Of a stretch of DNA of 64,000 nt, positions 3,626-61,519 are shown in pieces. This DNA comes from Phytophthora sp. 'mugwort'. Lineage: Eukaryota; Oomycota; Peronosporomycetes; Peronosporales; Peronosporaceae. The position numbers and the translations under genes were made by a program. The notes beneath the pieces were generated by a model, which did no database searches, had not been told where the DNA came from, and saw nothing but the letters and a program-made list of their open reading frames with translations. The DNA is taken from positions 3,658,001 to 3,722,000 of the forward strand of contig JAUCEF010000001.1 in the NCBI GenBank assembly GCA_033558025.1, read 5' to 3'. Position 1 is the first letter of the stretch. Every line of letters begins with the position of its first letter.

Positions 3626-4330
3626 ATGCAGGACATGGACCCAAAGTCAACGCGCGCGCAGTTCACGCAGGTGACGACACCCAGTGAGCTCGCGCCAATG
3701 CACGTAAGTGCGGTGAACCATCTGCCGTCTCCGTCGATAGCCTTGGAGCTGGACACGCCTCGCACCATGGAGGTCGTTGCCGGCGACGGGATCCCCACAG
3801 GCGCGTGGGCCGCCGGGCTGTTCGACTGCTTCGACAACCTCATGCCCAACTGCTTCATGGTCACTTTCTGTCCGTGTGTGGCCCTGGCGCAGCTGTCTAC
3901 GCGCCTGGGCGTCGCCTCGTATAAAGTGGTGCTGAGCCTGCTGCTCTTCGTCGCGATGGTGGAGCTCACCATGTTCACGCTTATCTGGGTCACAGCCGAA
4001 GACGACGACGACTCAAGCGACGAGATCTACAGCTATCGTTGGACGCACCGCAACCACTCGCACAACGACGTGGTCAACGGCACTTTCGTTGTCATCACGC
4101 TCGTCGTGCAGATGCTGCTTTTCGTCTACATTTGGCAGCTCCGTGCTAAGACACGCACGCGGTTCCAGCTCCCGGGCAACGCGGCGACCGACTGCCTCAG
4201 TTCGTGGTTTTGCTCGTGCTGCACGGTGGCGCAGCTCCGAACCCACGTCCGCAGCTACCAGCCAGGTAGCTGCACGTTTGGAGCACCCGACGTGCTCCAG
4301 GCTTACCCTGGCAAGTCGTACGCGGTGTAA
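3626..4330 (+). CDS. PLAC8-family cysteine-rich membrane protein (array member 1)
   Basis: 234-aa protein of the PLAC8 (cys-rich) family. Family members elsewhere include plant FW2.2/PCR proteins linked to cell size and metal transport; the function here is unknown. After a variable ~50-residue N-terminus comes the first Cys cluster (FDCFDNLMPNCFMVTFCPC), the AQLSTRLG helix, a hydrophobic segment, a long acidic/His loop (AEDDDDSSDE then HRNHSHN), a second hydrophobic segment, then FQLPGNAATDCLSSW, the CSCCTVAQLRTHV block and the terminal YQPGSCTFG...LQAYPG signature. Its loop between the membrane segments is the long type, shared with members 2 and 3. First of a same-strand tandem series. No intron needed. 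The ATG at 3626 is preceded by GCA and gives a normal-length family N-terminus. Confidence 0.85.
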   Translation: MQDMDPKSTRAQFTQVTTPSELAPMHVSAVNHLPSPSIALELDTPRTMEVVAGDGIPTGAWAAGLFDCFDNLMPNCFMVTFCPCVALAQLSTRLGVASYKVVLSLLLFVAMVELTMFTLIWVTAEDDDDSSDEIYSYRWTHRNHSHNDVVNGTFVVITLVVQMLLFVYIWQLRAKTRTRFQLPGNAATDCLSSWFCSCCTVAQLRTHVRSYQPGSCTFGAPDVLQAYPGKSYAV

Positions 4331-4593
4331 ACCGACCGACCAGCGACTGGTCGTTCTCAGCCTTTGATGCTCTGCTGCGTACCGTTCACCTAAGTGCCGT
4401 TGCACGAAAATATTCCACTTCTTATTGAAATTTTTTTCGTGATCTGGTTAAGGTTATCACTCCACTGTCTTGTGAAATCTCACTCGGCTATTTCAGATAC
4501 TACTTCTTCATCTCACGCAGTGCCACACACGAAAATAGACTGCTTCGTTTCTTGAGAGGATTTTCACTTAAAGACTTGCCTATCCGAGTTCTC

Positions 4594-34786: not shown

Positions 34787-37700
34787 ATGCATGAGTGTAG
34801 TGCCCAGCCTGCTCTTCCGCCCGGCCCTACAGCAAGCAGTATGGCATTCTCGCTGTCTCCGCAAGCCTTCCGGCCGGGCATTCGTAATTTCCAGGCCATG
34901 ACAAGCGACGAGCCCCCAAAAGTCGACGCAATGTCCTCTGCAGACGTTGTCACAGGTCCTGGACCACACGAGAAGCAGCCGGGTCTGTTCGATCGGTTCT
35001 TTCGTCGGAACCGAGCCGCCGATCAGTCTAGAGACGAAGATGCGAGTAACAATGCCCAGGAACTCGTCAAAAGTCGACTGCTTTTCGTCAATGATGTCAA
35101 GCGAACGATCGAGTACGCCACTTACATGCAGAGACATCATCACACAGACCCGTACTGGACAAACACTGTGTGTTCTTCCAAGTACACAACGCTCAACTTT
35201 CTCCCAAAGTCGCTGTTCGAGCAGTTCCGTCGCGTGGCCAATTTCTACTTTCTCATCATTTCGCTTCTTCAATTGTGTACAGATTTGTCACCTACAAACG
35301 AATATTCAACGATCGGTCCCTTGACGCTGGTCTTGACAGCCACAATGGTCAAAGAAGGTCTCGAGGACCGTGCACGGCATCAACAAGATTGGGTTGTCAA
35401 TCATGGAAAAGTGGAAGCACTCGGCGACTTGGTCGAACCTGGCGGAGCCAAGAAGAAGAAAAATGACGATCGAGAAGGCTCCCACACACCCCATCTAGGC
35501 GATTTCCAGTCCATTTTTTGGAAAAAATTACGTGTTGGTCACGTTGTCAAGCTCCACGACCAGGAGCAGGTACCGGCCGACCTCGTGCTCTTGTTTTCCA
35601 GTCAAGAGACCGGCGAAGCCATGTGCGAAACTTCGAGTCTTGACGGCGAGTCCAACCTTAAAGTTCGTCACTGCGTCAAATGGCACCATATTGTTCCACA
35701 CTCGCCGAAAGACTTTGGAGACCTTGTACACGGCGAAATCCGCTGCGAGGCGCCCAATAAACGACTGTACAGTTTCGACGGTGTGATACGAATTTCCTAC
35801 ATGAATACACCAGCCGTCGGCGAATTTTCAGTGCCACAGGACCCGACCGGTCCTGGGCATGTTCCTGAAGCTGTGGAAATCCCTATCACGATTGAAAATG
35901 TCCTATTACGCGGGATGAAACTGTGCAACACGAAATGGGTCGTCGGGGTGGTCGTCGGCGGTGGAAATGATACCAAATTGGTCCAAAACATGAAATCCAT
36001 CCCTTCGAAATTCAGCCGCTTGGATCGTATCGCCAACCGCTGTATTTTTCTCATTTTTTCCGTCCTTTTTGGTGTCTGCTGCTTTAGCTCCGTTCAGGCC
36101 TCGATTTTTGCCGTAAAAGTGCATGGAAATCCGGGTTATTCGACAGCGTACCCATTTGTCGCCAAGTTTCGCCCCGGGTACTTTTTGGAAGCTTGGGTCA
36201 CGTATTTGATCCTATATAACAATATGGTACCTATTTCCTTATATATCAGCTTGGAGGTTGTGAAATGGTACCAAGCGCGACGAATTGAGAATGACCCAAA
36301 AATGCGTTGCGCCATTACCGGTCGGGGTGTTGCGGCACGCACATCGAACGTGAATGAAGATCTCGGACAAATTAAATACATTTTCAGTGACAAGACCGGC
36401 ACGTTGACAAAAAATCAAATGCTCTTTAAAGTATGCAGCATTGGTGGTATAATCTTTGACGGATCAAATATGCACCTTCGTCGAGCAGCCCAAGCCAATA
36501 CTGACGACCTGTCTGGGACCACTGGTGATACGATGCTTAAGTTTGGCTCAACGTCTTCAGTCAGAGCGAATCGTGAGGGTGACGGACGACACAAGTCCAA
36601 GAACGTCTCAGTGACGGAAAAAGACGTCCGGCCGTATTCCCAACTCATGAAATTTGTCGAGAACCCTTCTCGTTTCTCAGCCAAAGAGGTTCATGCTGTG
36701 GACTTGGCACGTCCATTTTTTCGCTGTCTACTTCTTTGTCATTCGGCATCTGTAGCGATTGAGGAACCGTCCGCAGCAACAGAACAAACTGATGTCCAAA
36801 GTGTGACCAGCCGAACGCCAGTGGACAGTATCGAGGGCAGTATACGAGCTGAAAGCCGACGGCAAAGTGGCGCGGGATCGTTTACGACCAACCAAACCGC
36901 AACAGAAGCTACAGATGCGTTTCCTGCTCTTAAAGGCGATCGTCAGTTCTTCGGCTCGTCGCCCGACGAAGTGGCGCTACTTAACGCTGCACTGGAGTTT
37001 GACTGTATATACGAACGTCGAGAAGGTGACGTGATTCACATTCGACTGTTTGGTAAACCAGAATCGTATCAACTACTGGCAGTGAACGAATTTGACAGTA
37101 CACGGAAATGTATGTCGGTGGTCGTGAAGCGACTGACTCGAGATAACATGGACCTTGGGACGGAAGCGAAGCTCGCACGTGTTCAAGACAGCTGTGGAGA
37201 TCTGGATCACACGTTGGAAACCGATCTCGATAATGGATTGAATAGTGATTCCGAGTCGGAAGATCATGACATTCTCGTCTTTTCAAAAGGTGCCGATACC
37301 GTCATGTTTGCCAATGCCAACAAGGACCAGGATATCAGCAAGTTAGCTTTGCATGTCCACTACTTTGCAGCTATGGCACTTCGTACCTTGTTGCTTGGTC
37401 ATCGTACATTGTCAACGACTGAGTATCTCGCATGGAAAAGTGACTTTGATGCAGCGAAAAAAGCCTTATCCAGTCGTGAACAACAATGCGTCGAAGTGGC
37501 AAAACAAGTGGAAAAGTCGACTAAACTTCTAGGCGCTACGGGAGTTGAAGATTTACTCCAGGACGGCGTTAAAGAGTGTATTTCACAGCTTTCGCTTGGT
37601 GGTATTAACATTTGGATGCTCACAGGAGACAAGGATGAAACTGCGATCTCGGTCGCTCATATGTGCGGCCTCATTGGTCCTAAGAGCAAAATAGTCATTA

Positions 37701-40700
37701 TCAAAGGGAAAACAAAACAAGATTGTCTCGATGAAATTGCCAAAGCCCGACGGAAACTCAAGCGAGAAGGTGTTTGGGTCCCTGGTGTGGCGTCTCAGGA
37801 CATTTCGTTAGTGATTAATGGAGAAGCATTGGAACTTTTGCTGGCGGATGCTCTGACGTCGAGCAAAATCAATACGCAAATCTCGTACGTTAACGCCAAC
37901 CAAGTGGCTCCGCATTCCAGTCACACAAGTCACTCTGACGCCATGTACCACCACAACGCAACACTCGAGTTACTACGAAGTGAGCGAGATGCGTACGGAG
38001 GGCGTCTTAGTGGCTCTATGTCTGCCAAGTCAATGGGAAATCTACCGTTCCACGGGACGCATATGATTAATCGCTCAAGTTCAAGACCCGGATCAACGCG
38101 CACATCGATCACAGACTCTAATGGAGGTGCACAAATGGCTCACGAACTGTTTCTAGAGCTCGCGTCGCAGTGCAGAACGGTGGTTGCTTGTCGACTAAGT
38201 CCGATGCAGAAGGCTCAAGTTGTGAGCTTGATGAAGGCAGCACCAGGGACCCCATTAACTCTTGCAGTAGGCGATGGAGGTAACGATGTCAGTATGATTC
38301 AAGAAGCTCATGTTGGGATTGGAATCTACGGCCACGAAGGAATGCAAGCTGTACGCGCTGCAGATTTCGCTATTGTCACATTTCGTCATCTTTCTCGTCT
38401 TTTATTGGTGCATGGACGATGGAATCATCGTCGAGTGGCACGAGTGATTTTGTTCTCTTTTTACAAGAATATGGCGCTCATCATGACGCTTTTTTTGTAC
38501 TCATTTTACAATGGGTACTCGGGTCAGACACTGTACGAGTCGTACTTAATGGTTGGCTGGAATATGCTCTATACATTGCTGCCCATTTTCGTTTTGGGTA
38601 TTACGGACGAGGACATTAGAGATAGTGCCGTTCTTCGCTTCCCGTTTGTGTACCGAAGTTCGCTCAGAAAGAGTGAACTTAGTATCCGAGGTTTGTGTTT
38701 TTGGGTCGTAAATGCGATTTTCCATTCGCTTTTGGTCTTTTTCTTTGTCATTAAGACGATGGGTGGCGTGTCATCACGGTACAGTCACGCGAATGGACTG
38801 TTCCCGGATGGTACAGCCGTGTATGGAACACTGATCATCACAGTGAGTCTGAAGGCGTCACTGCATACCCAGTGCCTGTACCGCTGGACACGAGCACATT
38901 ACATGTCCCTCTTTGGTGGGTTTCTCGCCTACATTCTGTTCGTGGGGGCTTATTCGCAAGCCTATCGAATGTTCCCAACTTTTGACGTTTTTCGTGATTT
39001 CCAAGGGCTCGCACAGATCCTTTTCTCCGAAATGTTGTACTGGGTGATGCTGTTGTTTACATCCGTCACTTGTCTCTGTGTAGACTTGGCTGTCATGTAT
39101 CTAAGGAAAATGTACTTACCTTCCAGCAACGATATCATTCTAGAGATTGATAGCGGTCTTGGTGAGCTCCCGGCTTTACCTGTTCGCAACGCCGATGGCT
39201 CCACGGACACGATTCGTGCAGCTAAGCTCATTTATAGTTCGTCTGGACGCTCTGATGAAGGAAGTTACAATGGAATTGGTACATCAGTAGGTAGTTCTGT
39301 GCGGTCCGAGAAGGGAGAATTGTCACCGTCGTTACTTGAAGGCGAATGGAGTCAACAATTCCGAGATTTTGACCTCCCGACGGAACACGACGAACTCTCA
39401 AAGCAGCTCGTGTCGATACAACGTGAGCTCGCTCAAGAGATTGGCCATCCTGACCCATTAATGCAGGAAGATGACGCACACACTTCTCGAGCGTTGCGGG
39501 TGCAGCCTCCTGTACATCCTCTCACTCTTGCTTTTATGGGTGAGGAACATCAACGTTTAGAGACGGAGTACGAAATCACGTTTGCCTTTCGGGAACGTAG
39601 CCGTGTCATGCTGTGTCTTAAGGTCATGGCGTTCATGATCCCTTTATACGCAGCCTACGAACTACTTTGGGAACACGAGTCGTCGTACATTTGGATCCGC
39701 GTGGGCTACTTTGTGTGTGATGTTTTATTCATGCGCTTTGCCCGCACGAAATATTTCGTTCAAAATTACCAACTCGCGATTCTTTTGCCCTATAGCGTCA
39801 TTGGGATGGCGCTGACCTTGACAATCTCCGACACTGGCAAATTCGCTGCGGCACTCTACCCCGTGGGTCTCTTTGTGGTCATTCGCGTCAAGTTTCTCTA
39901 CGCACTGATGCTCTCACTCTACAATTTTGCATTCTACATGCTGGCAGACCGGCTCAATTCCATGAACTATAGCAACAATGTGGATCTGTCGGACCTCATG
40001 CTTTTCGCGCTCTACTTGGTCTTTATCATCACATTTGGAGCCTACGCGTGTTATTCCCTGCAGATCACCATGCGACGCGATTTCCTCCAGAGTCGTTCCC
40101 TACTTATCGAACAAAAGCGATCGACCCAAATCCTTAAAAATATGTTGCCAGAGCACGTGGTACAGCGTATGCAGAAAGGTGACACGCTCATTAGTGAGGA
40201 TGAACAGGACGTGACGATCCTTTTTTGTGACATCGCTGACTTTGCCTCGTTTGTGAACCGATTTAGCCCCACTGAGGTCGTCTCTCTGTTGGATCGCGTG
40301 TACTCACTTTTTGACCAAATTTGCCAGAAACATGGCGTCCGGAAGATGGAAACTGTCGGTAAAACGTACATGGCTTGCGCCGGGTTGCAAGGCAAAGATC
40401 AAGGCCGAGAGGCGGCACTTCGAGCGGTGTCGATGGCGTTGGATATGCTCGCGTCGCTTGACAAATGTCGGGCATCGAATGGCAATGGGATCAAACTACG
40501 ACTTGGAGTTCATTCCGGCCGCGTCGTCAGCGGCTTGGTGGGCATGAAGAAGCAGCAGTTTTCCTTATTTGGTGACACAGTTAACACAGCGTCACGCATG
40601 CAATCGACAGGAATTACTGGACGGTGTCAAATTTCTCAAGTGACGTATAAAAAACTTGTAGGACATTTCACATTTGAGGAACGACAAATTGACGTGAAAG

Positions 40701-42790
40701 GGAAAGGAAGTATGACCACGTACCTTGTGGGGGAGCCACTGACTGAAGTGGCACAAATGGCATGTCTCGGACAACTCGAGTTCAATACCAAGCGAGACTC
40801 GGTCTTGATGTCTTCTTCGGTGATGAATATACGGCGTCCTTTTGAGCAAGATTTTCTTGCGGCGACACGAAATCGGATTTTACACTCGGCCAGACAAAGA
40901 TGGAAGAAATATGACCCAATTCGTCTACTATTGGGTACACCACCGGATCTTGCGTCATGGGGAGGTACAGACACGAGCGAAAGTGTCGAACAGCACATGC
41001 TGACTGAGATTCGCTTATTGAATATGTGCTTTAAACACACAGATATGGAGAATAAATACCTTGAGAGCACACTGTCTGACCGAGTTGAAGGAGCACGCAC
41101 GACGCTCCTTGCTCTGGCAGTGTATGCGTCGTTTACGTGTCTGCGCGACCTGGTGGTGGAGCTTTTCTCCGTTATCAGCTCATATGCCCCACAGATCGGC
41201 ATCTCAGCGACTATGTACGCGATTATCTTGTTGACCCGAAGTCCTTTTGCCATTGTCGCTGTCTTGGTAGCTCGTCGTATACGTGACGAGTTTGTTTTTT
41301 ACTCGGAGCTGAAGCTTCGCAACGTGCTGCTTGGGTTCTATCTCGTGGGGCTTTTCGTCTTTACACTAACCCAGGCGCTGCTATGGGGACTTAATTTCGA
41401 GGCAAATATCGATACATCACCTCGTTATGTGAACTTGTGCCTCGATACAGTGCTCGCGATGTTTGTGGTCTCGAATGGACGATCCATTCTGTATCGTCAC
41501 GTGGTTGTATTTAACGTCATAGCGCTCATCATGGTGTCTATTACGACTCTGGTCTCGCTCCAAAGGTATCACCAGGACGCTGCCAGGTTTAATTCAAAGT
41601 TTAAAATAAGCTACCCGATCGTGCTCACATACTTCTCCGTGGTTGCAAACATTATCGCATCCCATAGTGTCGAGTTTTTTACACGGCGTCAAATCTGGCT
41701 CAAGACGCGGACTCAACTCGAGACGATGAATGCGGACCGATTGCTGTACCAAATGCTCCCCGCGGCGGTGGTGATGCGTCTGAAAGAAGGAGAAATGGTG
41801 TGTGACCAGCATCAGCAGGTTGGCATCCTCTTTTCCGATATTAAGGGCTTCACGTCCATCGCTTCGCAAGCTGCCACAGCGCAGGTTGTCAATATTCTCG
41901 CCTCTCTCTTCTGTGCCTTTGACAAGTTGACTGAAAAGCACGGTGTGTTCAAGATGCAGACTATTGGTGACGCTTACGTGATCGTATCAGGGCTGCCGTA
42001 CGTGGATATGAGTCTTGGGCCGGGCTTAGTAACAGGTTCCGCTAGTACTGTCGACATGTCAAACGCAGATGCCAGCATCGCTGTGGCCTCAGCCAGTACG
42101 TCCAGTACTGGAGGCCTCGCTGCTGGGTTGATGCGCATCTCTAGCAACCGCGTGCTGCCTCTGGAACAAACGAGCGAGGTCGTGGGAGGACCGAGTGGCA
42201 CTCCTCGAGGCTCTGGAGCCAAGCTGCGACAGCACGTCTTGAGACGAAGCACATTGAAGCACAAGCACCAGATGCATTTACGTAGCCATATCCGCGACCT
42301 GCTGGCTATGGCTCGCGATATGCACAAAGAAGTTCGTAAAGTACAGGACCCAAACACGGGCGAGCGGCTGCAGATGCGTATCGGTATTCATGTCGGCAAT
42401 ATCATCGGCGGGGTGATCGGTACGACGACACTACGCTACGACATGTGGGGCCCTGATGCTCTGACTGCTAATGAACTGGAATCGAACGGTGTGCCAGAGA
42501 AGACCCTTGTGAGTCCCATCGTTCAAGATGTGGTCAAGGACATGATTGATATCCGCTGCACGTTCCACCGCAAGATCAACTTTACCAATATCCCCTTGAT
42601 GAATACGTACCTTGTCGAGTTTATCGAGCCCGGCACTGGTGATATGGCAAGTGGCAGCATTCTTGGCAGTGGTGGGAGAAGAAATAGCGAGAAGATAAAG
42701 GAACATCTTAACCCCGCACCCGGCTACGTCAGCTCCGACGACGACAGAGCCAATGCCAACTCGGCCCCCGAGCACCCGTCGACTGTATAA
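34787..42790 (+). CDS. P4-type ATPase fused to two class III nucleotide cyclase domains (predicted guanylyl cyclase)
   Basis: 2667-codon uninterrupted ORF. N-terminal flippase-type ATPase: the P4 entry motif KYTTLNFLPKSLFEQFRR, actuator DGES at D286 (usually DGET), phosphorylated D535 in SDKTGTLTKNQ, LTGDKDETA at D948, and hinge GDGGNDVSMIQEA at D1163, so all steps of the P-type cycle look possible. ATPase membrane segments end near residue 1440. A six-segment block (~1600-1760) precedes cyclase domain 1 (~1780-1985), and a second block (~2100-2300) precedes cyclase domain 2 (~2320-2610). Domain 1 has metal Asp D1815, but K1859 replaces the second metal Asp; it keeps N1933 and R1937, with E1855 at the purine-selecting site and S1926 at the partner site. 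Domain 2 has both Asp (D2351, D2395) but L2559 and E2563 instead of Asn/Arg. Together they can form one active heterodimer site, probably for GTP. Alternative starts at 34841 or 34898 are possible. Confidence 0.93.
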   Translation: MHECSAQPALPPGPTASSMAFSLSPQAFRPGIRNFQAMTSDEPPKVDAMSSADVVTGPGPHEKQPGLFDRFFRRNRAADQSRDEDASNNAQELVKSRLLFVNDVKRTIEYATYMQRHHHTDPYWTNTVCSSKYTTLNFLPKSLFEQFRRVANFYFLIISLLQLCTDLSPTNEYSTIGPLTLVLTATMVKEGLEDRARHQQDWVVNHGKVEALGDLVEPGGAKKKKNDDREGSHTPHLGDFQSIFWKKLRVGHVVKLHDQEQVPADLVLLFSSQETGEAMCETSSLDGESNLKVRHCVKWHHIVPHSPKDFGDLVHGEIRCEAPNKRLYSFDGVIRISYMNTPAVGEFSVPQDPTGPGHVPEAVEIPITIENVLLRGMKLCNTKWVVGVVVGGGNDTKLVQNMKSIPSKFSRLDRIANRCIFLIFSVLFGVCCFSSVQASIFAVKVHGNPGYSTAYPFVAKFRPGYFLEAWVTYLILYNNMVPISLYISLEVVKWYQARRIENDPKMRCAITGRGVAARTSNVNEDLGQIKYIFSDKTGTLTKNQMLFKVCSIGGIIFDGSNMHLRRAAQANTDDLSGTTGDTMLKFGSTSSVRANREGDGRHKSKNVSVTEKDVRPYSQLMKFVENPSRFSAKEVHAVDLARPFFRCLLLCHSASVAIEEPSAATEQTDVQSVTSRTPVDSIEGSIRAESRRQSGAGSFTTNQTATEATDAFPALKGDRQFFGSSPDEVALLNAALEFDCIYERREGDVIHIRLFGKPESYQLLAVNEFDSTRKCMSVVVKRLTRDNMDLGTEAKLARVQDSCGDLDHTLETDLDNGLNSDSESEDHDILVFSKGADTVMFANANKDQDISKLALHVHYFAAMALRTLLLGHRTLSTTEYLAWKSDFDAAKKALSSREQQCVEVAKQVEKSTKLLGATGVEDLLQDGVKECISQLSLGGINIWMLTGDKDETAISVAHMCGLIGPKSKIVIIKGKTKQDCLDEIAKARRKLKREGVWVPGVASQDISLVINGEALELLLADALTSSKINTQISYVNANQVAPHSSHTSHSDAMYHHNATLELLRSERDAYGGRLSGSMSAKSMGNLPFHGTHMINRSSSRPGSTRTSITDSNGGAQMAHELFLELASQCRTVVACRLSPMQKAQVVSLMKAAPGTPLTLAVGDGGNDVSMIQEAHVGIGIYGHEGMQAVRAADFAIVTFRHLSRLLLVHGRWNHRRVARVILFSFYKNMALIMTLFLYSFYNGYSGQTLYESYLMVGWNMLYTLLPIFVLGITDEDIRDSAVLRFPFVYRSSLRKSELSIRGLCFWVVNAIFHSLLVFFFVIKTMGGVSSRYSHANGLFPDGTAVYGTLIITVSLKASLHTQCLYRWTRAHYMSLFGGFLAYILFVGAYSQAYRMFPTFDVFRDFQGLAQILFSEMLYWVMLLFTSVTCLCVDLAVMYLRKMYLPSSNDIILEIDSGLGELPALPVRNADGSTDTIRAAKLIYSSSGRSDEGSYNGIGTSVGSSVRSEKGELSPSLLEGEWSQQFRDFDLPTEHDELSKQLVSIQRELAQEIGHPDPLMQEDDAHTSRALRVQPPVHPLTLAFMGEEHQRLETEYEITFAFRERSRVMLCLKVMAFMIPLYAAYELLWEHESSYIWIRVGYFVCDVLFMRFARTKYFVQNYQLAILLPYSVIGMALTLTISDTGKFAAALYPVGLFVVIRVKFLYALMLSLYNFAFYMLADRLNSMNYSNNVDLSDLMLFALYLVFIITFGAYACYSLQITMRRDFLQSRSLLIEQKRSTQILKNMLPEHVVQRMQKGDTLISEDEQDVTILFCDIADFASFVNRFSPTEVVSLLDRVYSLFDQICQKHGVRKMETVGKTYMACAGLQGKDQGREAALRAVSMALDMLASLDKCRASNGNGIKLRLGVHSGRVVSGLVGMKKQQFSLFGDTVNTASRMQSTGITGRCQISQVTYKKLVGHFTFEERQIDVKGKGSMTTYLVGEPLTEVAQMACLGQLEFNTKRDSVLMSSSVMNIRRPFEQDFLAATRNRILHSARQRWKKYDPIRLLLGTPPDLASWGGTDTSESVEQHMLTEIRLLNMCFKHTDMENKYLESTLSDRVEGARTTLLALAVYASFTCLRDLVVELFSVISSYAPQIGISATMYAIILLTRSPFAIVAVLVARRIRDEFVFYSELKLRNVLLGFYLVGLFVFTLTQALLWGLNFEANIDTSPRYVNLCLDTVLAMFVVSNGRSILYRHVVVFNVIALIMVSITTLVSLQRYHQDAARFNSKFKISYPIVLTYFSVVANIIASHSVEFFTRRQIWLKTRTQLETMNADRLLYQMLPAAVVMRLKEGEMVCDQHQQVGILFSDIKGFTSIASQAATAQVVNILASLFCAFDKLTEKHGVFKMQTIGDAYVIVSGLPYVDMSLGPGLVTGSASTVDMSNADASIAVASASTSSTGGLAAGLMRISSNRVLPLEQTSEVVGGPSGTPRGSGAKLRQHVLRRSTLKHKHQMHLRSHIRDLLAMARDMHKEVRKVQDPNTGERLQMRIGIHVGNIIGGVIGTTTLRYDMWGPDALTANELESNGVPEKTLVSPIVQDVVKDMIDIRCTFHRKINFTNIPLMNTYLVEFIEPGTGDMASGSILGSGGRRNSEKIKEHLNPAPGYVSSDDDRANANSAPEHPSTV

Positions 42791-42951
42791 GTTACTGAAG
42801 CTTCCAAATAATCTAATTATTCTAAATTTGTTTAAACCATTCTTTCAAATTGTTTAAATAGTATCAAAAGAAAATATGAACAACCATTTTGGTAAATCAA
42901 TTGGATGATTAAGTCGGCTTCAACACTTTTATGTGCACCACACCACATAAG

Positions 42952-43899
42952 ATGTTGTCCATGACCCCGACTGCTGCGAACCCGCACGCTGCCTTCGCCG
43001 TCCTGACCGACTACGGGCTATTGCAACATATCACGAGTTTCCAGCAAGGGCTGCCGTACCTCGTAGGGCAGATCGATGCCAGTCTCGACGGCTTGACGCA
43101 GCTTGGCGTCTTTCGTGGGAAGCTGCCACGATTCGCCATTCGTCAACGAGATCTGCACATGCTGAAGGTACTACGAAGAGCTACACTGGACCCGAGACTG
43201 CAAGAACATCCACAGCTTCAGTTCTACGGAGTGCGTCGCTGTGCTATCGAGTACAGCAGTGTTGAACTCCTGAGATGGCTACATGTTACGCGCCACACGT
43301 CCCCGACAACGACGGATGAGTCGGGACTGCTTGGGGTTGCAGCAACCTGCTACTTTGACAACGTGGAGATAATGGAATGGCTCTATAATGCACCAGAAGG
43401 ACTCCATGAAGCGGTTGAGATGGTCGCAGAGGTCGAATTGTGTCGTGCGGCTGGGTTTGGCAACATTCGAAGCATTCGCTGGCTGCATGAACACGGTAGC
43501 ACGGCCTTCTCGTCCCTTGTGATGGATACCGCTGCAACGCACGGACATTTGGAGCTGGTCAAGTTCTTGCATGAGAACAGGACAGAAGGTTGTACGACAC
43601 GAGCCATGCACGGCGCGGCGTTGAATGGATATCACCAAGTTGTGAAGTATCTCGCCCAAAATCGAGAGGAAGGTCCTGGAGAGCGAACGCTCGAGATGGC
43701 GGCTAGCGCAGGTCATTTGCACTGTGTTGAAGCACTCTGTCAGTTTACACAGCCTTCTACAGTGTCAACGTTTGCGGTGGCTCGTCAGTGTGCGCTTGAT
43801 GCAGGACACAAGGATATTGCTCGCTTTCTTGCCAACCAGAAAGAGGACGCGAATACGGAAACCAAAGAGAAGAAAAGCCGTTGTTTCGGGCTCTTTTAA
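42952..43899 (+). CDS. Ankyrin-like repeat protein, short form
   Basis: About 315 aa from the ATG at 42952; the frame also has ATGs at 42931 and 42961. The N-terminal region (ALTDYGLLQHI-type helix, FRGKLPRFAIRQRDLHMLKV) matches that of the convergent neighbour, followed by divergent ankyrin-like helices and one clear 28-residue unit, CTTRAMHGAALNGYHQVVKY then LAQNREEG, then a unit like EMAASAGHLHCVEALCQF. The C-terminus is Lys/Glu-rich and ends in KKSRCFGLF. No signal peptide or membrane segment; likely a cytosolic protein-interaction scaffold. Function unknown. A paralogue lies tail-to-tail 67 bp away. Confidence 0.75.
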   Translation: MLSMTPTAANPHAAFAVLTDYGLLQHITSFQQGLPYLVGQIDASLDGLTQLGVFRGKLPRFAIRQRDLHMLKVLRRATLDPRLQEHPQLQFYGVRRCAIEYSSVELLRWLHVTRHTSPTTTDESGLLGVAATCYFDNVEIMEWLYNAPEGLHEAVEMVAEVELCRAAGFGNIRSIRWLHEHGSTAFSSLVMDTAATHGHLELVKFLHENRTEGCTTRAMHGAALNGYHQVVKYLAQNREEGPGERTLEMAASAGHLHCVEALCQFTQPSTVSTFAVARQCALDAGHKDIARFLANQKEDANTETKEKKSRCFGLF

Positions 43900-53995: not shown

Positions 53996-56900
53996 TTATC
54001 CAACCTTGTTGGGGTTGGCGTGAGGCGCCTTCAGCAATGCAGGCGCGTGTGGAGGCACCAGCAAACGGCGAAGATCCTCCGACGTGGCCTGCGTCGTGTC
54101 GCCATGGGTTTCCCATACCCGGGACGCAATAAGTAGGCTGGAAATGGCGCCGCCACTGCCTGGATTGGACGACAACACGGACAGAAATCGCGCCGCGTAC
54201 TGCTTGGTCGTCGTACTCTCGCCCATCTTGGACTTCGGCACGAGTGTGGACAGCAGGTTGAGCAGCGCTGCTGCAAGCTGCGAGCTCACTGCAGCCTTGG
54301 CAAATTCCGTGGCAGCCTGTGTGTGTCGCTTGAGAGGGATCATGTGCAAACACAGCAGAAGCTGCATCTCTGTCGAGTCGCCCAGCCACACATGCGGCAG
54401 TAGGTTTGACAAGCTCGCAGGGTCCATTCCCTTGACAAGGTTGTCGATGCAGGCAGGAATGAGACACAAATTGCCAAGCAACTGTAGCGTCACTCGAGCT
54501 AACTGACCCTCGGTCGACGCCTCGGTGCGAGCAAGATTCTTGTACACGACCTGGAACGCACTCTTGATAAAGGGAGGAACGACAGTCGCCAACGGATCCA
54601 CACACTTGCCACTGAACGAAAGCATATGCACACATTCCATGCAACGAAGCTGTAGCAGTGGTGCATTTGCAAAGGAAAATCCCTGAGGTTGTGTCTCGTG
54701 GTCCAGCACAAACAACAGCGTCAGTAGTCCGTCGGTCTGAATAACCTGGACGTCCATGTCGGGCGTATACTGCAGTAAATTCCTGATAGCCGTAGCGACA
54801 GGTAATAAACGTTGAAGTAATACACTCTCTAGTGCCTGCGGCTGGGCGCGAACACCCGAGATGTCGTATGACAGTGCAGCCAGCAGACCGTGCATCACAT
54901 GTCCACTCACAGTACGGTTCTCCAGCTCCGCTGCGGCCGCAGCAGCAGCTTGGATCTCCTTCTTCGTTGTTGGCTTCGGCTTGTACATATCAGCACGACT
55001 TCCATTGCCATTCACAGTTCCAGCAATCTGAGAGAGGATACCATTCTTCGGATTCTCATTGAAAAAGTTGACATAAATGCCCGCCACGCACAACTCTTCT
55101 TTCTGAGCCGTGTACATGAAGTACGGTGGCAATTCAAACACCTTGTGCACTTCTTCGTCGCTTTGATCCAAGCTTGTGTGGAATTGGATGGCACGCTGAG
55201 CAAGACTGATCAACTCTTTTCGCATGCGTTCAGTCCACATCACGTGCGGTTCGCGAACTTCAGTCGCCAGTACATCCAGCATTTTAATCGGGCCTGCGCG
55301 ACGCAAGATGTCTACCAGTGGACGCGTAAAGACCTGCTCAATTGTAGTTTGCATCCGTTTGACAAACACAGCAATCGACTCCTCTTTTGCGTTGGCTTCC
55401 AAAATCCGTCCCAGCGCTTTCGCCGCGCCAATGCTGATACGCTGTGTGTCTCCGTCGCTGTCATCATTATTCGGTTGGTAGTGAAATAACAGGAGCGTCA
55501 AATACCAGAGGATTCCATGCTCAGCAAGCTGCAGCAACAGAACTTCTGCCATTTCGCCTGAACTTCCAGCCATTTCGTACACGATTTGGAGGGACAAATC
55601 CGTAGCTAAGCGATCACCTCCTTGTGAGAGAAAGCGTGTCAAGCAAGGCAACAAGTCAATAGACTGTGCAGCTGCCGACACACGTCCATTCGGCTGATTC
55701 AGAACGTTCACGAGAGCTTCTAACACCCAGTGAGTGATCATATTCGGCGTACATCCATCGACAGTACTCAATGCTTCTTGGTTGTGGAAAAGCAACTGAA
55801 GCGAGTTGCATAGCACGCGCAATCCCAGCCCAGAGCTACATTCGTGAGCGTTCTCATCCGAAATACCAACGGCCAAATTGATCACACGAATGGCACTCCC
55901 AAAAGCTTTCACGAAGGTTGTCTTTGTCGCAATGGCGTTTGACACATCAAAAAATGTCTTGGTCGAGTTAACGCGGTTGTCCTTCAGCTCCGTGATACAC
56001 CGCTCCAGGGCCTCCAGAAAATATGAAAAGTTTTGCAAGTTCGTGATACTTGACGAGTCGGGAAAACGACGCAAAAGCAGCGCAGTGGCGTCTAGCAACT
56101 CAACTGCATCGAACACTGTAAGAAGTTTTGTGGATTGGCCTTCGCTGGCTATTGCCCCGCGGGTGGTTAACAGCAATCCTGGGTGCACCCAGCGTCGAAT
56201 TGAATCCAGTATGGCCCGTAAGAAAGCAGCTTCGTCATTGATTGGCCACCCAGGAAAGTTCTTTTCATCCAGAAGGTTATGTAGGTAGTACTGGTAACAC
56301 TGTAGTGCGTGGACTTCCTTCGGGTACTGGATCAACGCAATGCAAGCCTTGTGTTCCGAGCCCTCGTTCTCGGAAATGTAAAACATGCCGCTTTCATCAG
56401 TATGACGTTCCATGAATTTCTCAATGTACGACACCATTTGGCTACGCATATTCGCATTCCAAACCACCTCCGGGTTGCTCGCGTCCGAGAACAGCGCCGT
56501 CGCAAATCGTCGCGGTCCATGACGCAACAGCTGAGCAACCATCGACACAGGCAACACTCGCACCAACCAGCTTCTCAAGCAGATTCGCGTCAGGGGATCA
56601 GGAGAGAAAACACCTTTCTTGTTTTCTCCCTTTTGTTTGTCATCAATGAGATGTGGTACGTCCAGTCCAGATTGCCGCAAATGGATGTGAGAAATAAGAC
56701 GTGCCGCGATCGACATTTCTTCCACATCTTGGGAAAAACGGAGCAAGTAATAAAAGATGCCAGAGGCATGAAGGTTCGGGATGATGGCCTCATTGTGTCG
56801 AACAAGAAGTCGAATCAAGCCGAGGCATTTTTTGAAAACAATGCGATTCGGACAGTCCAGAAGTCCTACCAAGAATCGGAGTGTCTGATCTTCACACAGC

Positions 56901-59900
56901 CGACGTTTAATGGAGCTAATCGGACTCACCCCCGAGCCTTCAAAATGCGTAAGACGTCCATATTTCGGAAAACGGATATCCTGATACATGTGTCCTTCTT
57001 CTTCTGCGGTATGGCAATCAATGAGTCGACTGAGTACACTTAAACAGGTCTGCATAATCATTGAACCACTCATGGCACCGCAATGCTCTGCTACAACGGT
57101 CACACGACTGGGCTCCTCCTCATGAACACTGTCATCATCGCGATGTGCATACGTCGGTGAGACGGAGTGACTCGAAATTATGGAGCTTTCTGCACCAGAC
57201 TCTTCCAGAGCATCGATCGTCCTCTTTGCCATATCCCTCTCGTCATCATAGTCCTCATCGTACTCGTCGTACTCGCCTTTATCGTCAGCGTAATCCGTGT
57301 CGTCGTCGACATCGACATCGTCGTTCTCATCTAGCGATGCATCTAGCTCAGCTTGAACGTCAGTTGCAGGCTCTACGATATACTCTTTCTCGGAATCGTT
57401 GGGTCCTTGGAGAACGACCAGCGGCTTCGCTTCACGCAGCAAATTCAACACCATTGTCACGTTATCTCTTTCACGTAAAAACCGCGACACGTTTAACGCG
57501 CTCGAGAGCACACGATCCACGAACAGCATGATATTGCCACGGACAACCAGCGGCCACCGTCGGTCCTCGCCATCTTTGCTTATCATCATGCTCACTCGCA
57601 GGAAATGATTCAAGAACATCAGCGAACCCAATTCGTTGAAATGACGCTCGTATAGCTGGATCATGACCTTCAGTACCAGCAAACGAATGTCGGACTGATC
57701 AACGTCACCGAGTGTATCCGCTGAGGAATACCATTCTCCGTTCTGCAGTTTTTTCGTCAAAGCGCTACGATCTTCAGCCAACAATCGATAATACAGCAGC
57801 GTCATGAACTTCTCCGCTCCATCAATTTCTTCCACCAACACACCACGATCGTCAAGAATGTTTGCGAGGTAATACGGACCAACCTTCACCTCACTCTCCA
57901 GACACTCGTAATCGATACGGAATTCATTGCAATTCCACGCCACAAACCACCGCGGCGTATTCTTGGCGCTTTTCTTTTTCTTCTTTGCCAGGTGGGCAGT
58001 GCGAAAGTCTTCATGGGCGTCTTGATCGCCCTGTTTAGGCTCTGAGGTATCACCAGGGCGTATTATACTGTTGGATCGAGAAATAAATCCGTTTTCATCG
58101 GTGTAGTTCTCGTCGCTGTCGTAGTTGTCATCATCTAAACCGCCGTCACTCTCGACATCATCAGACGTGTCGGGATTCAGTAGGAACGAAAGCGGCATGT
58201 ACCTAGCGAATCGGTTGGATGATGAGATCGTTCCTTTCATCATTTCAACGGCTAGTCGGCTTTCAGAGCCATTTTGCAAGAACTCAAAAAGAAACGGGGC
58301 GAAGTTTGCATGCTGTGGGTCGTGGCGAAGCCTGTTTGCTTGATACGCGTCCCATTCAGTCTCGGTATGGTCAGTGGCAAGTGGGTCCGTGTAAAGATAC
58401 CCCAGATATTTTAACCGGTACAAGTCCAGTGTGCTCATTTCTGCCTGAAGCTTACGAATCAGCTCTTCAACAGCATTAGGTCCCCACACAAGATCTTTAG
58501 TCGCATAAGTTTTACCTAGTCGGTCAAAAAATTCGGGCAAAAGTACAGCGTACTTAACGTTTCGCGCCAAACGAGCACGCGTATTAATCCCATAGCTCAT
58601 TTTGCTGCGTCCACTTTCCGTTGCATTCGTGATATCACGCCGATTTCCATTCTTATGCGACGTACTGTTGTTTTTAGCGTAAAGCTCGGGATTTGCAGTC
58701 GGTAGATGCCTTCCAAACTCGTCATACTCGAGCTGGTTAGTTTTCTGGTCGTCCAGTAGTGCGTGTGGGAAAATATTTCGAATTACGTAAGATGAGCGAG
58801 GATTTTCATGCGTGAGAAGTGCTACCAACTGGGACGAGATTCGGCGCTGAGCCTTGTCTTGAGTATACAGCGCCAAGTAAAGCTGCCAAACCAGAGCCCC
58901 ATGCTTTCGTGCGAAATCCTGAATCAGCTCCACGAGCTCAGTAGGCTGCTCCAAAATGTGCACCTTCACCAAAATTGACGAGCACTTCGTGATTGAAAAA
59001 CTCAATGACCGGTTGAACAAGAACAGAGCATGGTGGCGCGAAAAATCATCAACCTTCATGGCTCGAAGGATATCCCTCGCCACTCTCTCCGGGGTTGCCT
59101 TCTTTCCGCTCGACAAGCAAACCTCGAGCGTTTGCAGAACCATGGCAAGGACAAGATAGTCCAATCCCAGTTGAGAATACGCCAGTGCATTTGCCATACT
59201 GCGTTCAGTGTTGGACATTGCCGCCACCGATGGGAATCCATGGTTCGATCCTGATTTAACCAAAAAAGTGGAATGCAGTGGTATGCGGCCCACTCGATTC
59301 GTCCTCGACAGATCAAATGCGCGAGACACGTACATCCTGCTATGATACTTGGTGAATATTGCTCGACGATTGGCTGTTTCGGACTTCAAGCTGCGAGTAT
59401 CAGAGTAATTCACCACCATATACTTGATGACGCACGCCGCTGCAAAGCTCACCTCCTCCATCGGAGAATGAAGCAACTCCATGATTACTTCGATGCTGTT
59501 CTTGTACTGCGAGCTCGGAATTTCCTCAAAGACCCCACGCGTGCAAAGCAGCCGCTGGATTGCCAACAGCAGCTCCACTTGGAACTCCGTGGTCGGGATT
59601 GGAGCGTCAGTGTTGGAAGGGCTATTGAGCTGGGCCACAGAATAATCTTTGAAATTTTCCAACAACTTCATCAGACTCGCAAACGCACGTCGATCACGCT
59701 GGCGCAGACCTCCCAACGGGATATTGCGGTTAAACTGGACCAGTTGGTGGTGGATGAGCGAAATGCTCTCGTTCGTCACGAGATTCGGAATAAAGTTCAA
59801 ATTAACCAGCTTACGCAGCAAAATATCTTCCCATTCAGGGTGGACCTCAGTGCCCCACGTTCCCTCCTTGCATGCAATTTTCGTTTCCTCTGTTGACCAC

Positions 59901-61519
59901 GGCACATGCAGCTTGTTCATGCGGCACATCTCAATCATGTTGCTCAAGAAAAGACTTCGAGCTTCCTTCGGACTGAGCAACGACGTAGATCCCGCAACTG
60001 TCAGCCATTCGGGAACGTCCATATCTCCAGCTATATCTCCGATGAGTTGGCGAAGCTCATTTTCATGCTGTGACGATACTCGTTTCAACCCGAGACTGAC
60101 TTCCTTATCACGTCTGCTCACGGTGGAGCTCAGACAAATGTACCGACGCGTCAGTCCGTGCTTCAATTCCAGTGCGAATTTACCGCTCAACCCCTGAGAA
60201 GACTCGCTATCAGGGCCGTCTTGAGATGAAGACACTGACGGATAAATCACCACGTTAAAAATATCATTGAGTGAGTGGCTTGCCATAGTTTTTCGCGTCA
60301 CGGGATCTCGCTCGATGATCGCCAACGCAGTTAAACCCAGTAAGCGCAGCTGTAACTTGTCGGACTTATTCTTGCTGATCTTCAACACAGGAATTTCGAA
60401 CGAAACCGGCTGCGGAATGTCCCGCGTCGACGTGAGAGCATCAAACTCGCACGAATCCGACACTTCCTCCACGAACAACGACACACTGAGCCATGACCGT
60501 AAATTATTCGCAATCGCCTGGATAAATGGCTCACGACTGTCACACCAGTAGCGATGCACACGGTTGTTCTCAAAGTATAGCACCAGTTCATTCGAGTTGG
60601 TGTTTACACGCTGGATCTTGACGATATCAATGAGCAAAATTGACGACAGCGTTGTGCGCGTCTGTGGGTCGAGTCGATCCAAACTTGCAGCTCGCACCGC
60701 CAACAACACGTCTACCTTAACTGGATGAATCGCAATGCTGCGCGTCGTACTGAGCTTCGTCATTGTAAACGTCTTCCCACACAGTTGAAACAAACTGTCA
60801 AAGTACATACCGGTGCCAAGCACGTTGGCATTACTTCCTCCAGTTCCTCCGGGTCCTCCCGAGCCTGTGGCCCAGCTATTGTCACTAGTGCCAACACTCG
60901 CTCCTACAGCGCTCAAGGCGTCGGCAGTCGCTGCATCGATCTCGTCTTTCCTAAAGAACGAGGCTCGCTCTCTTAGTTGGTAGTAAGCCGACAGCAACTG
61001 CTGTCGGCATCTGCACGTGTACGTCTCCTTGAGATTCTTGCCGATGAAGATCGTGAAGGCTCGGTCGGCGTTGTGGCCGCCGCTGTCCGAGGCAATAGTG
61101 ATCTCCTTGATGTTATCAAAGGCGTAGCGCTCTTTCACCTCGTCCGAGTACGGGTCCACGATGGTCAAGTGGTTGCTGCTGAGCACCATGAGCCGCTTGG
61201 CCGAGCGCAAGAAGCCCACGCGCGTCACGAAGAAGCGCGCAGCGTAGATGACGCCGGCGTAGCGGTTGACGGGCACCTCGAGGTTATCCACGTCGTCCTC
61301 GTCGTCCTCCTCCTCCTCAGCGCCGCTTGTGGCGGCCGGCAGCGCGCCGTAGAAGGAGCTGGCGCGCGGTTCCACCTCGAAGCCTGTGGTTTCCGGCCCT
61401 CGCGGCACGAAGCTCTCATCCAGCGAGACCAGGTCACGACCAAACACCATTGGGTCTAGCTTCTGCTTGAGCTGCTGCAGGTCCGCGTCGCCGCTATCGT
61501 CGCCGCGGGGCAGCGCCAT
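53996..61519 (-). CDS. RME-8/DNAJC13/GRV2-type endosomal protein, apparently without a J domain
   Basis: 2507 aa from the ATG at 61519; the frame is open 20 codons further but starts there with TTG. N-terminal PH-like lobes (for example RYAGVIYAARFFVTRVGFLR followed by SAKRLMVLSSNHLTIVDPYS) correspond to the phosphoinositide-binding part of RME-8. A conserved RME-8 block, WNCNEFRIDYECLESEVKVG with PYYLANILDD, lies near residue 1190. Armadillo-like helical repeats follow, with two NPxxxWN-type blocks (NPEVVWNANMRSQMV, and PHVMWTERMRKELISLAQRA) typical of RME-8. Known family members bind early endosomes and regulate retromer and Hsc70. In the position of the J domain here is a long acidic Asp/Glu-rich stretch (near residues 1310-1370), and no HPD is seen anywhere. 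Intronless. Confidence 0.8.
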   Translation of the reverse strand: MALPRGDDSGDADLQQLKQKLDPMVFGRDLVSLDESFVPRGPETTGFEVEPRASSFYGALPAATSGAEEEEDDEDDVDNLEVPVNRYAGVIYAARFFVTRVGFLRSAKRLMVLSSNHLTIVDPYSDEVKERYAFDNIKEITIASDSGGHNADRAFTIFIGKNLKETYTCRCRQQLLSAYYQLRERASFFRKDEIDAATADALSAVGASVGTSDNSWATGSGGPGGTGGSNANVLGTGMYFDSLFQLCGKTFTMTKLSTTRSIAIHPVKVDVLLAVRAASLDRLDPQTRTTLSSILLIDIVKIQRVNTNSNELVLYFENNRVHRYWCDSREPFIQAIANNLRSWLSVSLFVEEVSDSCEFDALTSTRDIPQPVSFEIPVLKISKNKSDKLQLRLLGLTALAIIERDPVTRKTMASHSLNDIFNVVIYPSVSSSQDGPDSESSQGLSGKFALELKHGLTRRYICLSSTVSRRDKEVSLGLKRVSSQHENELRQLIGDIAGDMDVPEWLTVAGSTSLLSPKEARSLFLSNMIEMCRMNKLHVPWSTEETKIACKEGTWGTEVHPEWEDILLRKLVNLNFIPNLVTNESISLIHHQLVQFNRNIPLGGLRQRDRRAFASLMKLLENFKDYSVAQLNSPSNTDAPIPTTEFQVELLLAIQRLLCTRGVFEEIPSSQYKNSIEVIMELLHSPMEEVSFAAACVIKYMVVNYSDTRSLKSETANRRAIFTKYHSRMYVSRAFDLSRTNRVGRIPLHSTFLVKSGSNHGFPSVAAMSNTERSMANALAYSQLGLDYLVLAMVLQTLEVCLSSGKKATPERVARDILRAMKVDDFSRHHALFLFNRSLSFSITKCSSILVKVHILEQPTELVELIQDFARKHGALVWQLYLALYTQDKAQRRISSQLVALLTHENPRSSYVIRNIFPHALLDDQKTNQLEYDEFGRHLPTANPELYAKNNSTSHKNGNRRDITNATESGRSKMSYGINTRARLARNVKYAVLLPEFFDRLGKTYATKDLVWGPNAVEELIRKLQAEMSTLDLYRLKYLGYLYTDPLATDHTETEWDAYQANRLRHDPQHANFAPFLFEFLQNGSESRLAVEMMKGTISSSNRFARYMPLSFLLNPDTSDDVESDGGLDDDNYDSDENYTDENGFISRSNSIIRPGDTSEPKQGDQDAHEDFRTAHLAKKKKKSAKNTPRWFVAWNCNEFRIDYECLESEVKVGPYYLANILDDRGVLVEEIDGAEKFMTLLYYRLLAEDRSALTKKLQNGEWYSSADTLGDVDQSDIRLLVLKVMIQLYERHFNELGSLMFLNHFLRVSMMISKDGEDRRWPLVVRGNIMLFVDRVLSSALNVSRFLRERDNVTMVLNLLREAKPLVVLQGPNDSEKEYIVEPATDVQAELDASLDENDDVDVDDDTDYADDKGEYDEYDEDYDDERDMAKRTIDALEESGAESSIISSHSVSPTYAHRDDDSVHEEEPSRVTVVAEHCGAMSGSMIMQTCLSVLSRLIDCHTAEEEGHMYQDIRFPKYGRLTHFEGSGVSPISSIKRRLCEDQTLRFLVGLLDCPNRIVFKKCLGLIRLLVRHNEAIIPNLHASGIFYYLLRFSQDVEEMSIAARLISHIHLRQSGLDVPHLIDDKQKGENKKGVFSPDPLTRICLRSWLVRVLPVSMVAQLLRHGPRRFATALFSDASNPEVVWNANMRSQMVSYIEKFMERHTDESGMFYISENEGSEHKACIALIQYPKEVHALQCYQYYLHNLLDEKNFPGWPINDEAAFLRAILDSIRRWVHPGLLLTTRGAIASEGQSTKLLTVFDAVELLDATALLLRRFPDSSSITNLQNFSYFLEALERCITELKDNRVNSTKTFFDVSNAIATKTTFVKAFGSAIRVINLAVGISDENAHECSSGLGLRVLCNSLQLLFHNQEALSTVDGCTPNMITHWVLEALVNVLNQPNGRVSAAAQSIDLLPCLTRFLSQGGDRLATDLSLQIVYEMAGSSGEMAEVLLLQLAEHGILWYLTLLLFHYQPNNDDSDGDTQRISIGAAKALGRILEANAKEESIAVFVKRMQTTIEQVFTRPLVDILRRAGPIKMLDVLATEVREPHVMWTERMRKELISLAQRAIQFHTSLDQSDEEVHKVFELPPYFMYTAQKEELCVAGIYVNFFNENPKNGILSQIAGTVNGNGSRADMYKPKPTTKKEIQAAAAAAAELENRTVSGHVMHGLLAALSYDISGVRAQPQALESVLLQRLLPVATAIRNLLQYTPDMDVQVIQTDGLLTLLFVLDHETQPQGFSFANAPLLQLRCMECVHMLSFSGKCVDPLATVVPPFIKSAFQVVYKNLARTEASTEGQLARVTLQLLGNLCLIPACIDNLVKGMDPASLSNLLPHVWLGDSTEMQLLLCLHMIPLKRHTQAATEFAKAAVSSQLAAALLNLLSTLVPKSKMGESTTTKQYAARFLSVLSSNPGSGGAISSLLIASRVWETHGDTTQATSEDLRRLLVPPHAPALLKAPHANPNKVG

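Follow-up and report, generated by a model that had tools for sequence, protein, structure and literature searches.

P4-ATPase-guanylyl cyclases of the ciliates Paramecium and Tetrahymena were reportedly described by Linder et al. in 1999. The apicomplexan counterparts are GCalpha and GCbeta of Plasmodium and TgATPaseP-GC of Toxoplasma. In Plasmodium, the phosphorylated aspartate of the ATPase could not be replaced, the loss of the protein was rescued by a cGMP analogue, and the authors' conclusion places the ATPase upstream of the cyclase and of cGMP (PMC7858053). In Toxoplasma, the complex with CDC50.1 and UGO combines inputs from phosphatidic acid, pH and ions (PMC9600588). The fusion is called alveolate-specific in the available parts of two papers (PMC6592433, PMC7858053). 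A comparison that included P. infestans and two ciliates reported bifunctional orthologues from apicomplexans and none from any other group (PMC5348985). Since two ciliates were included, the comparison missed the ciliate fusions as well.

Among the papers listed in searches of the open-access literature, none reported a P4-ATPase-cyclase fusion in oomycetes or stramenopiles. Fused sequences are in the databases already, mostly named for one half, and P0179 is named for both. The kind of protein is already known; the novelty lies in how widely it occurs and in the age that this spread implies. Here we describe a member encoded in the window, that is, the whole stretch of 64,000 nucleotides of Phytophthora sp. 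'mugwort' DNA that was analysed.

Gene and domain layout

The initial annotation had proposed that one ORF carries a full P4-ATPase followed by two units, each made of a membrane block and a class III cyclase domain, as in the alveolate guanylyl cyclases. The ORF was found as proposed, with 2667 codons at window positions 34787-42790 on the + strand and without an internal stop. Codon 19 of the ORF corresponds to the start in 11 of the 12 orthologues compared; that of Nothophytophthora starts two residues later. Because 11 of the 12 begin at codon 19, the protein probably starts at 34841, giving a probable coding sequence at 34841..42790 (+) and a product of 2649 aa. A DNA search of the 86.26-Mb assembly (154 contigs) found a single copy of the gene; its three other matches were short and had 68-77% identity. 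Cyclase-domain matches number at least 18 in the genome, and three of these belong to the P4-ATPase-cyclase gene.

The Pfam families lie in one polypeptide in the order P4-ATPase, then two class III cyclase domains. PhoLip_ATPase_N (residues 117-176), Cation_ATPase, Hydrolase and PhoLip_ATPase_C (1189-1446) scored above the curated cut-offs, as did Guanylate_cyc (whole-protein E 1e-91, three stretches), so that the N-terminal P4, hydrolase and cyclase profiles were all over threshold; E1-E2_ATPase, at 20.3 bits, was below its cut-off of 28.1 bits. In the PDB sequence search, the top matches were P4-ATPases (6k7g, E 1.9e-173), and lower matches were membrane adenylyl cyclases that covered the second half of the protein.

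The P4-ATPase (lipid flippase) module spans residues ~101-1455 (35087..39151, + strand, as for all features that follow; PF16209, PF13246, PF00702, PF16212; PDB 6k7g). The motifs KYTTLNFLP, DGES, DKTGT and GDGGND, which had been named before, were read at residues 132, 286, 535 and 1162. DGES is the actuator-domain motif (286-289, 35642..35653), DKTGT contains the phosphorylated aspartate (535-539, 36389..36403) and GDGGND is the P-domain hinge motif (1162-1167, 38270..38287). We also read the nucleotide-binding motif KGAD (834-837, 37286..37297) and the TM4 lipid-path motif PISL (482-485, 36230..36241), whose meaning is taken from the available text of PMC7858053. A conserved coding linker (1456-1605, 39152..39601) leads to the first cyclase membrane block (1606-1760, 39602..40066), which is supported by hydropathy, model helices and the match to human AC9. 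Cyclase domain 1 (1799-1985, 40181..40741) is followed by the second membrane block (2101-2295, 41087..41671; hydropathy and model) and by cyclase domain 2 (2336-2611, 41792..42619), which holds a variable insert near residues 2412-2496. A simple hydropathy scan placed five candidate TM segments over its cut-off ahead of domain 1 and six ahead of domain 2. The full P4-ATPase and the two membrane-block/cyclase units were thus borne out by the Pfam families, the motif positions and the hydropathy blocks.

One protein or two genes

It is extremely improbable that two adjoining genes have been read here as a single ORF. The ORF has no stop and no frame break, and the ATPase-cyclase linker is conserved, with a mean identity to the window protein of 60% (residues 1456-1535) and 82% (1536-1605) over seven Peronosporales and Pythiales sequences. 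The 12 named Peronosporales proteins P0002-P0013 have 2606-2658 aa. Entries from Globisporangium, Pythium and Lagenidium, for example P0021, P0027 and P0031, are of similar size (2601-2767 aa), and Saprolegniales entries are shorter or longer depending on the gene model. Among the matches listed, the best were the Phytophthora proteins P0002-P0010, with 83-86% identity over 99% of the length. Since these orthologues are 83-86% identical and the second half of the linker is 82% conserved, the fused ORF is not a product of chance. Furthermore, five protist entries with transcript-assembly names (P0057, P0058, P0060, P0084, P0122) each combine the ATPase with the two cyclase domains in a single ORF, with the N-terminal ATPase family absent from three of the five in Pfam. 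A gene-model artefact was therefore rejected on the unbroken frame, the conserved linker and the orthologues of matching length.

An ankyrin-repeat ORF (window 42931-43899) begins 140 bases past the cyclase stop. Four cyclase entries (P0014, P0015, P0018, P0022), from P. cactorum, P. aleatoria and P. kernoviae, are listed with ankyrin domains; together with the adjoining ORF, these domains suggest that annotators probably merged two genes in these entries. The window also contains an uninterrupted ORF of 2507 aa with an RME-8 N-terminal domain at 53996-61519 (-).

Cyclase domains and predicted product

In domain 1 of the window protein, the base-binding pair is E1855/S1926, the transition-state residues N1933 and R1937 and a lysine, K1971, are kept, and K1859 replaces the second metal Asp. 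Domain 2 retains the two metal aspartates, D2351 and D2395, and has L2559/E2563 in place of the N/R pair. The same division was seen across the family: E, N, R and K were present in the first domain of all 40 fused sequences read, and both Asp residues were kept and N/R lost in the second domain of all 39 that have one, P0195 being a fragment without domain 2. From these residues, the two domains are predicted to be able to form a single composite GTP site, to which domain 1 would contribute the base-binding and transition-state residues and domain 2 the two metals. The inverted order of the domains is that of the Plasmodium, Neospora and Tetrahymena sequences. In animal adenylyl cyclase, in contrast, the roles of the domains are exchanged (as read against the Folsomia sequence P0176).

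The second base-binding position varies over the fused sequences (S, C, A and once V), and the E/S pair is present in all 14 named oomycete sequences, the window protein included. The textbook guanylyl cyclase pair is E/C, and E at the first position is guanylyl-type. The window enzyme is very likely a guanylyl rather than an adenylyl cyclase. An enzyme that produces cAMP or lacks a fixed substrate would fit the departure of E/S from the textbook pair but is quite unlikely, as the first-position E is guanylyl-type and as E/S and E/A are also found in ciliate and apicomplexan members. Adenylyl specificity was rejected on these two points.

The Neospora sequence has the residues that PMC6592433 gives for Toxoplasma, except in the column taken for the gamma-phosphate Arg. 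This column holds N in domain 2 of the window protein and S in Neospora, whereas the Arg is reported as kept in Toxoplasma (PMC6592433). This mismatch makes the assignment of the column uncertain, and little weight can be given to the N of the window protein.

A structure model was made for residues 1560-2640 only, from 23 sequences (pLDDT 72, pTM 0.64), and the large insert of domain 2 falls in its low-confidence region. In the fold search, the model gave whole-chain matches to human AC9, AC5 and AC8; the TM-scores, normalised by query length, were 0.42-0.50 and the rmsd was near 10 A. The paired catalytic domains of AC9 (7pdd, 6r4p) were matched at 2.4-2.8 A over 426-430 residues. As far as the model can be relied on, the cyclase half thus resembles the mammalian transmembrane adenylyl cyclases (AC5, AC8, AC9) in its whole-chain fold, 12 TM segments and two-domain composite site; the mammalian enzymes have no ATPase attached. 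Since the model spans residues 1560-2640 only, a P4 match was impossible in this search.

Two more two-domain cyclases are present in the genome, on contigs C2 (2900889-2903444) and C13 (4525267-4527426), with no ATPase family nearby; the base-binding residues of their first domains are E/K and E/H. Among described oomycete cyclases are PPTG_08439, a zoospore cyclase of P. parasitica (PMC12223298), and PITG_09926 of P. infestans, whose base-binding residues were read by its authors as guanylyl-type (PMC5322657). An identity of the window gene with either was considered and dropped, as neither text, in the parts available, equates them (PMC12223298, PMC5322657). No further papers with the tag PITG_09926 were found in the open-access literature.

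State of the ATPase

Each of the seven ATPase motifs examined has its canonical form in the window protein. DKTGT, KGAD, PISL, GDGGND and FYKN are kept in all 11 other oomycete sequences read, and Achlya b has small changes in the remaining two of the seven. In the Cafeteria copy, the actuator motif is changed and KGAD is absent from the alignment, and in P. vivax and Neospora the motifs are partly changed. Compared with the window protein, the ciliate fusions have altered motifs in six of seven sequences, Blepharisma 1 being the intact one. DKTGT is kept and other motifs are altered in Blepharisma 4 and Stentor 1; the motifs are degenerate in Blepharisma 3, Blepharisma 6, Stentor 2 and Tetrahymena, although the last sequence, whose branch length was 6.14 in the first ATPase tree, may be misaligned.

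Since motifs are in this state across the oomycete, Cafeteria, apicomplexan and ciliate sequences, the ATPase of the ancestral fusion was probably catalytic, as their distribution suggests. A somewhat unlikely reading is that the ATPase part has lost its pump function and serves as a lipid sensor or scaffold. The altered motifs in six of the seven ciliate sequences, strongly so in the four degenerate ones, point in this direction, as pumping then seems dispensable in some lineages; moreover, loss of CDC50B in Plasmodium left bulk lipid uptake unchanged (PMC9426505, in the part available). However, the seven intact motifs of the window protein and the five kept in the 11 other oomycete sequences argue against this reading.

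The window protein shares the catalytic and PISL motifs with the P4 flippases Drs2 and ATP8A1. It differs from them in its cyclase and, read by eye, in the TM1 pair, which is QL compared to QQ in ATP8A1 (PMC7858053). A transcriptome entry, P0093 (INCI9963), holds a P4-ATPase and a CDC50 domain in one protein in Pfam, so that pump and partner subunit are apparently fused there. In all three ATPase trees this protein groups with the P4-ATPases of the cyclase fusions.

Distribution of the fusion

Three protein searches were made, from which the best 120 of 353, 120 of 142 and 120 of 848 matches were taken, so that the taxon spread is a lower bound. Similar fused proteins were listed from at least the Peronosporales, Pythiales, Saprolegniales, Cafeteria, ciliates, a dinoflagellate and apicomplexans. 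By taxonomy, Cafeteria belongs to Bigyra, and the oomycetes form a phylum of their own. The window protein shares with the apicomplexan fusions the module order, the inverted cyclase domains and the residue pattern, as read in the sequences of P. vivax, P. cynomolgi and Neospora. The apicomplexan sequences have 3,950-4,410 aa and an E/A pair, whereas the window protein has ~2,650 aa, an E/S pair and more canonical ATPase motifs. The module order of the ciliate fusions is likewise the same, and the E/S pair is found in Tetrahymena, Blepharisma and Stentor. The likeness to the alveolate P4-ATPase-guanylyl cyclases pointed out at the outset therefore holds on the domains, the cyclase residue table and the ATPase motif table. 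With ~2,650 aa compared to ~4,000-4,400, the oomycete proteins are also shorter ones for structure work.

The Saprolegniales sequences split in two groups, one of which is nearer to the Peronosporales and Pythiales (84/53 in the reduced cyclase tree, 96/92 in the last ATPase tree). The second fused paralogue group of the Saprolegniales (P0048, P0049, P0050, P0052, P0053) was not seen among the Peronosporales and Pythiales sequences of the trees. The two groups suggest an early duplication and a loss.

Phylogeny and descent

The sequences for the trees were picked from 290 proteins and loci of the genome itself. In the first cyclase tree (69 sequences), the fused family was on one side of a 100/98 branch. 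Ten sequences were then removed (P0276, P0253, P0169, P0071, P0085, P0259, P0249, P0176, P0219, P0062), for long branches or, in the case of P0249 and P0259, for lacking an ATPase family yet falling inside the ciliates; these two, of which P0249 is a Paramecium protein of 1000 aa, could be fragments or could have truly lost the ATPase. In the reduced cyclase tree, 51 fused sequences were on one side (100/99) and eight unfused two-domain cyclases on the other, where "fused" includes Stentor P0140 and P0210, for which Pfam gives no ATPase family, and P0191, which has just the C-terminal one. The apicomplexan fusions were in a common clade with the window protein. The cyclase phylogeny thus groups the window gene with the alveolate fusions (100/98, 100/99); the opposite outcome had been named in the initial annotation as one that would refute its reading. 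With high confidence we regard the gene as the same as the alveolate fusions in identity and of shared ancestry with them, as judged from sequence comparison.

Within the family, the reduced cyclase tree separated an alveolate side of 19 sequences (99/95; five assigned to it by their place in the first cyclase tree) from a stramenopile side of 32 (98/89; 13 so assigned). The latter comprised the oomycetes (100/100), Cafeteria and six sequences (100/97), and seven further sequences. The node joining the oomycetes and Cafeteria was weak in this tree (81/38) and had 94/79 in the first cyclase tree and 94/92 in the last ATPase tree. The first ATPase tree also had 69 sequences, of which three were removed: Tetrahymena, P0062 and P0081, the last being an Aphanomyces model of 1613 aa that hardly differs from a fused sequence of the same genus. 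Six more were removed for the last one (Kwoniella, Gaertneriomyces, Dimargaris, P. infestans, S. parasitica 2 and P0084). The ATPase trees gave the same split, with the alveolates at 100/99 and the stramenopile side at 94/91 in the last tree.

The initial annotation had left the choice between an ancestral gene and transfer. A horizontal transfer of the fused gene from alveolates to oomycetes would agree with the papers that, in their available parts, describe the fusion from alveolates only (PMC6592433, PMC7858053), but it is very improbable. A grouping of oomycetes with ciliates was rejected in the cyclase tree (p-AU 0.0038) and in the reduced ATPase tree (p-AU 0.00016), and one of oomycetes with myzozoans in the cyclase tree (p-AU 0.00014), these groups having been named after the first tree had been seen. 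Moreover, the fused protein is also present in Cafeteria, a distant stramenopile, though the joint node is weak (81/38). The AU test also rejected a group made up of just the oomycetes and the Cafeteria trio (p 0.0076, cyclase tree); this grouping omits four sequences that join Cafeteria (100/97). Transfer was therefore rejected on the AU tests and the Cafeteria fusion, and the ancestral gene is favored by the placement of Cafeteria with the oomycetes opposite monophyletic alveolates.

The number of fusion events was also considered. That stramenopiles and alveolates each joined the same P4 and cyclase subfamilies independently, in at least two events, is improbable. In favor of this, the ATPase tree gives no resolved single clade of the fused sequences: a larger group (99/98, last ATPase tree) holds these and three unfused ones, namely two loci of the genome itself (L012, L016) and the INCI P4-CDC50 protein, which are interspersed without resolution. 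A single clade of fused ATPases was not rejected (p-AU 0.44, reduced ATPase tree). However, the cyclase halves lie on one side against the eight unfused two-domain cyclases (100/99), the domain order and residue pattern are the same across the family, and the alveolate/stramenopile split is common to both halves. We thus consider that the two halves were most probably joined in one single event. The window gene is quite likely the stramenopile orthologue of the apicomplexan and ciliate P4-ATPase-guanylyl cyclases, inherited from an already fused stramenopile-alveolate ancestor. Fusions in many oomycetes and a bicosoecid move the likely origin back to that ancestor.

Proposed signalling pathway

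By homology with Plasmodium and Toxoplasma, we propose an order that runs from lipid and CDC50 through the ATPase conformation to the cyclase, cGMP and a kinase. The ATPase with a CDC50 subunit would bind or flip a phospholipid in the membrane. There is about an even chance that its conformational cycle would permit or trigger the cyclase, and a lipid trigger such as phosphatidic acid is doubtful. PKG-like kinases and cyclic-nucleotide-gated channels could then be the targets of the cGMP made, and sporangia and zoospores are possible stages for this. The genome has two CDC50 genes as candidate partners and 16 PDE-domain matches. Three of the nine cyclic-nucleotide-binding ORFs scanned (L035, L045, L048) combine three cNMP-binding domains with a kinase. 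PKG-type kinases have been reported in P. infestans (PMC3019232).

Nearly all the P. infestans cyclic-nucleotide genes examined were expressed mostly in sporangia and zoospores (PMC5322657). In a study cited in the available text of that paper, cGMP was unchanged during zoosporogenesis, which counts against a role in those stages. Encystment of P. infestans was triggered by added phosphatidic acid (PMC3056787, citing earlier work), and lipid-to-cGMP signalling in zoospores thus becomes testable. An ancient lipid-gated cGMP switch that is active in both groups, such that the signal lipid of Toxoplasma egress, phosphatidic acid or a flippase substrate, would also drive oomycete zoospore encystment through the orthologue, is an unlikely extension of this proposal.

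Two further ORFs on contig C3, L061 and L063 (2673 and 2775 codons), have four spaced cyclic-nucleotide-binding matches each, with an ion-channel domain beside one match. They look like four-repeat cyclic-nucleotide-gated channels and are possible cGMP effectors.
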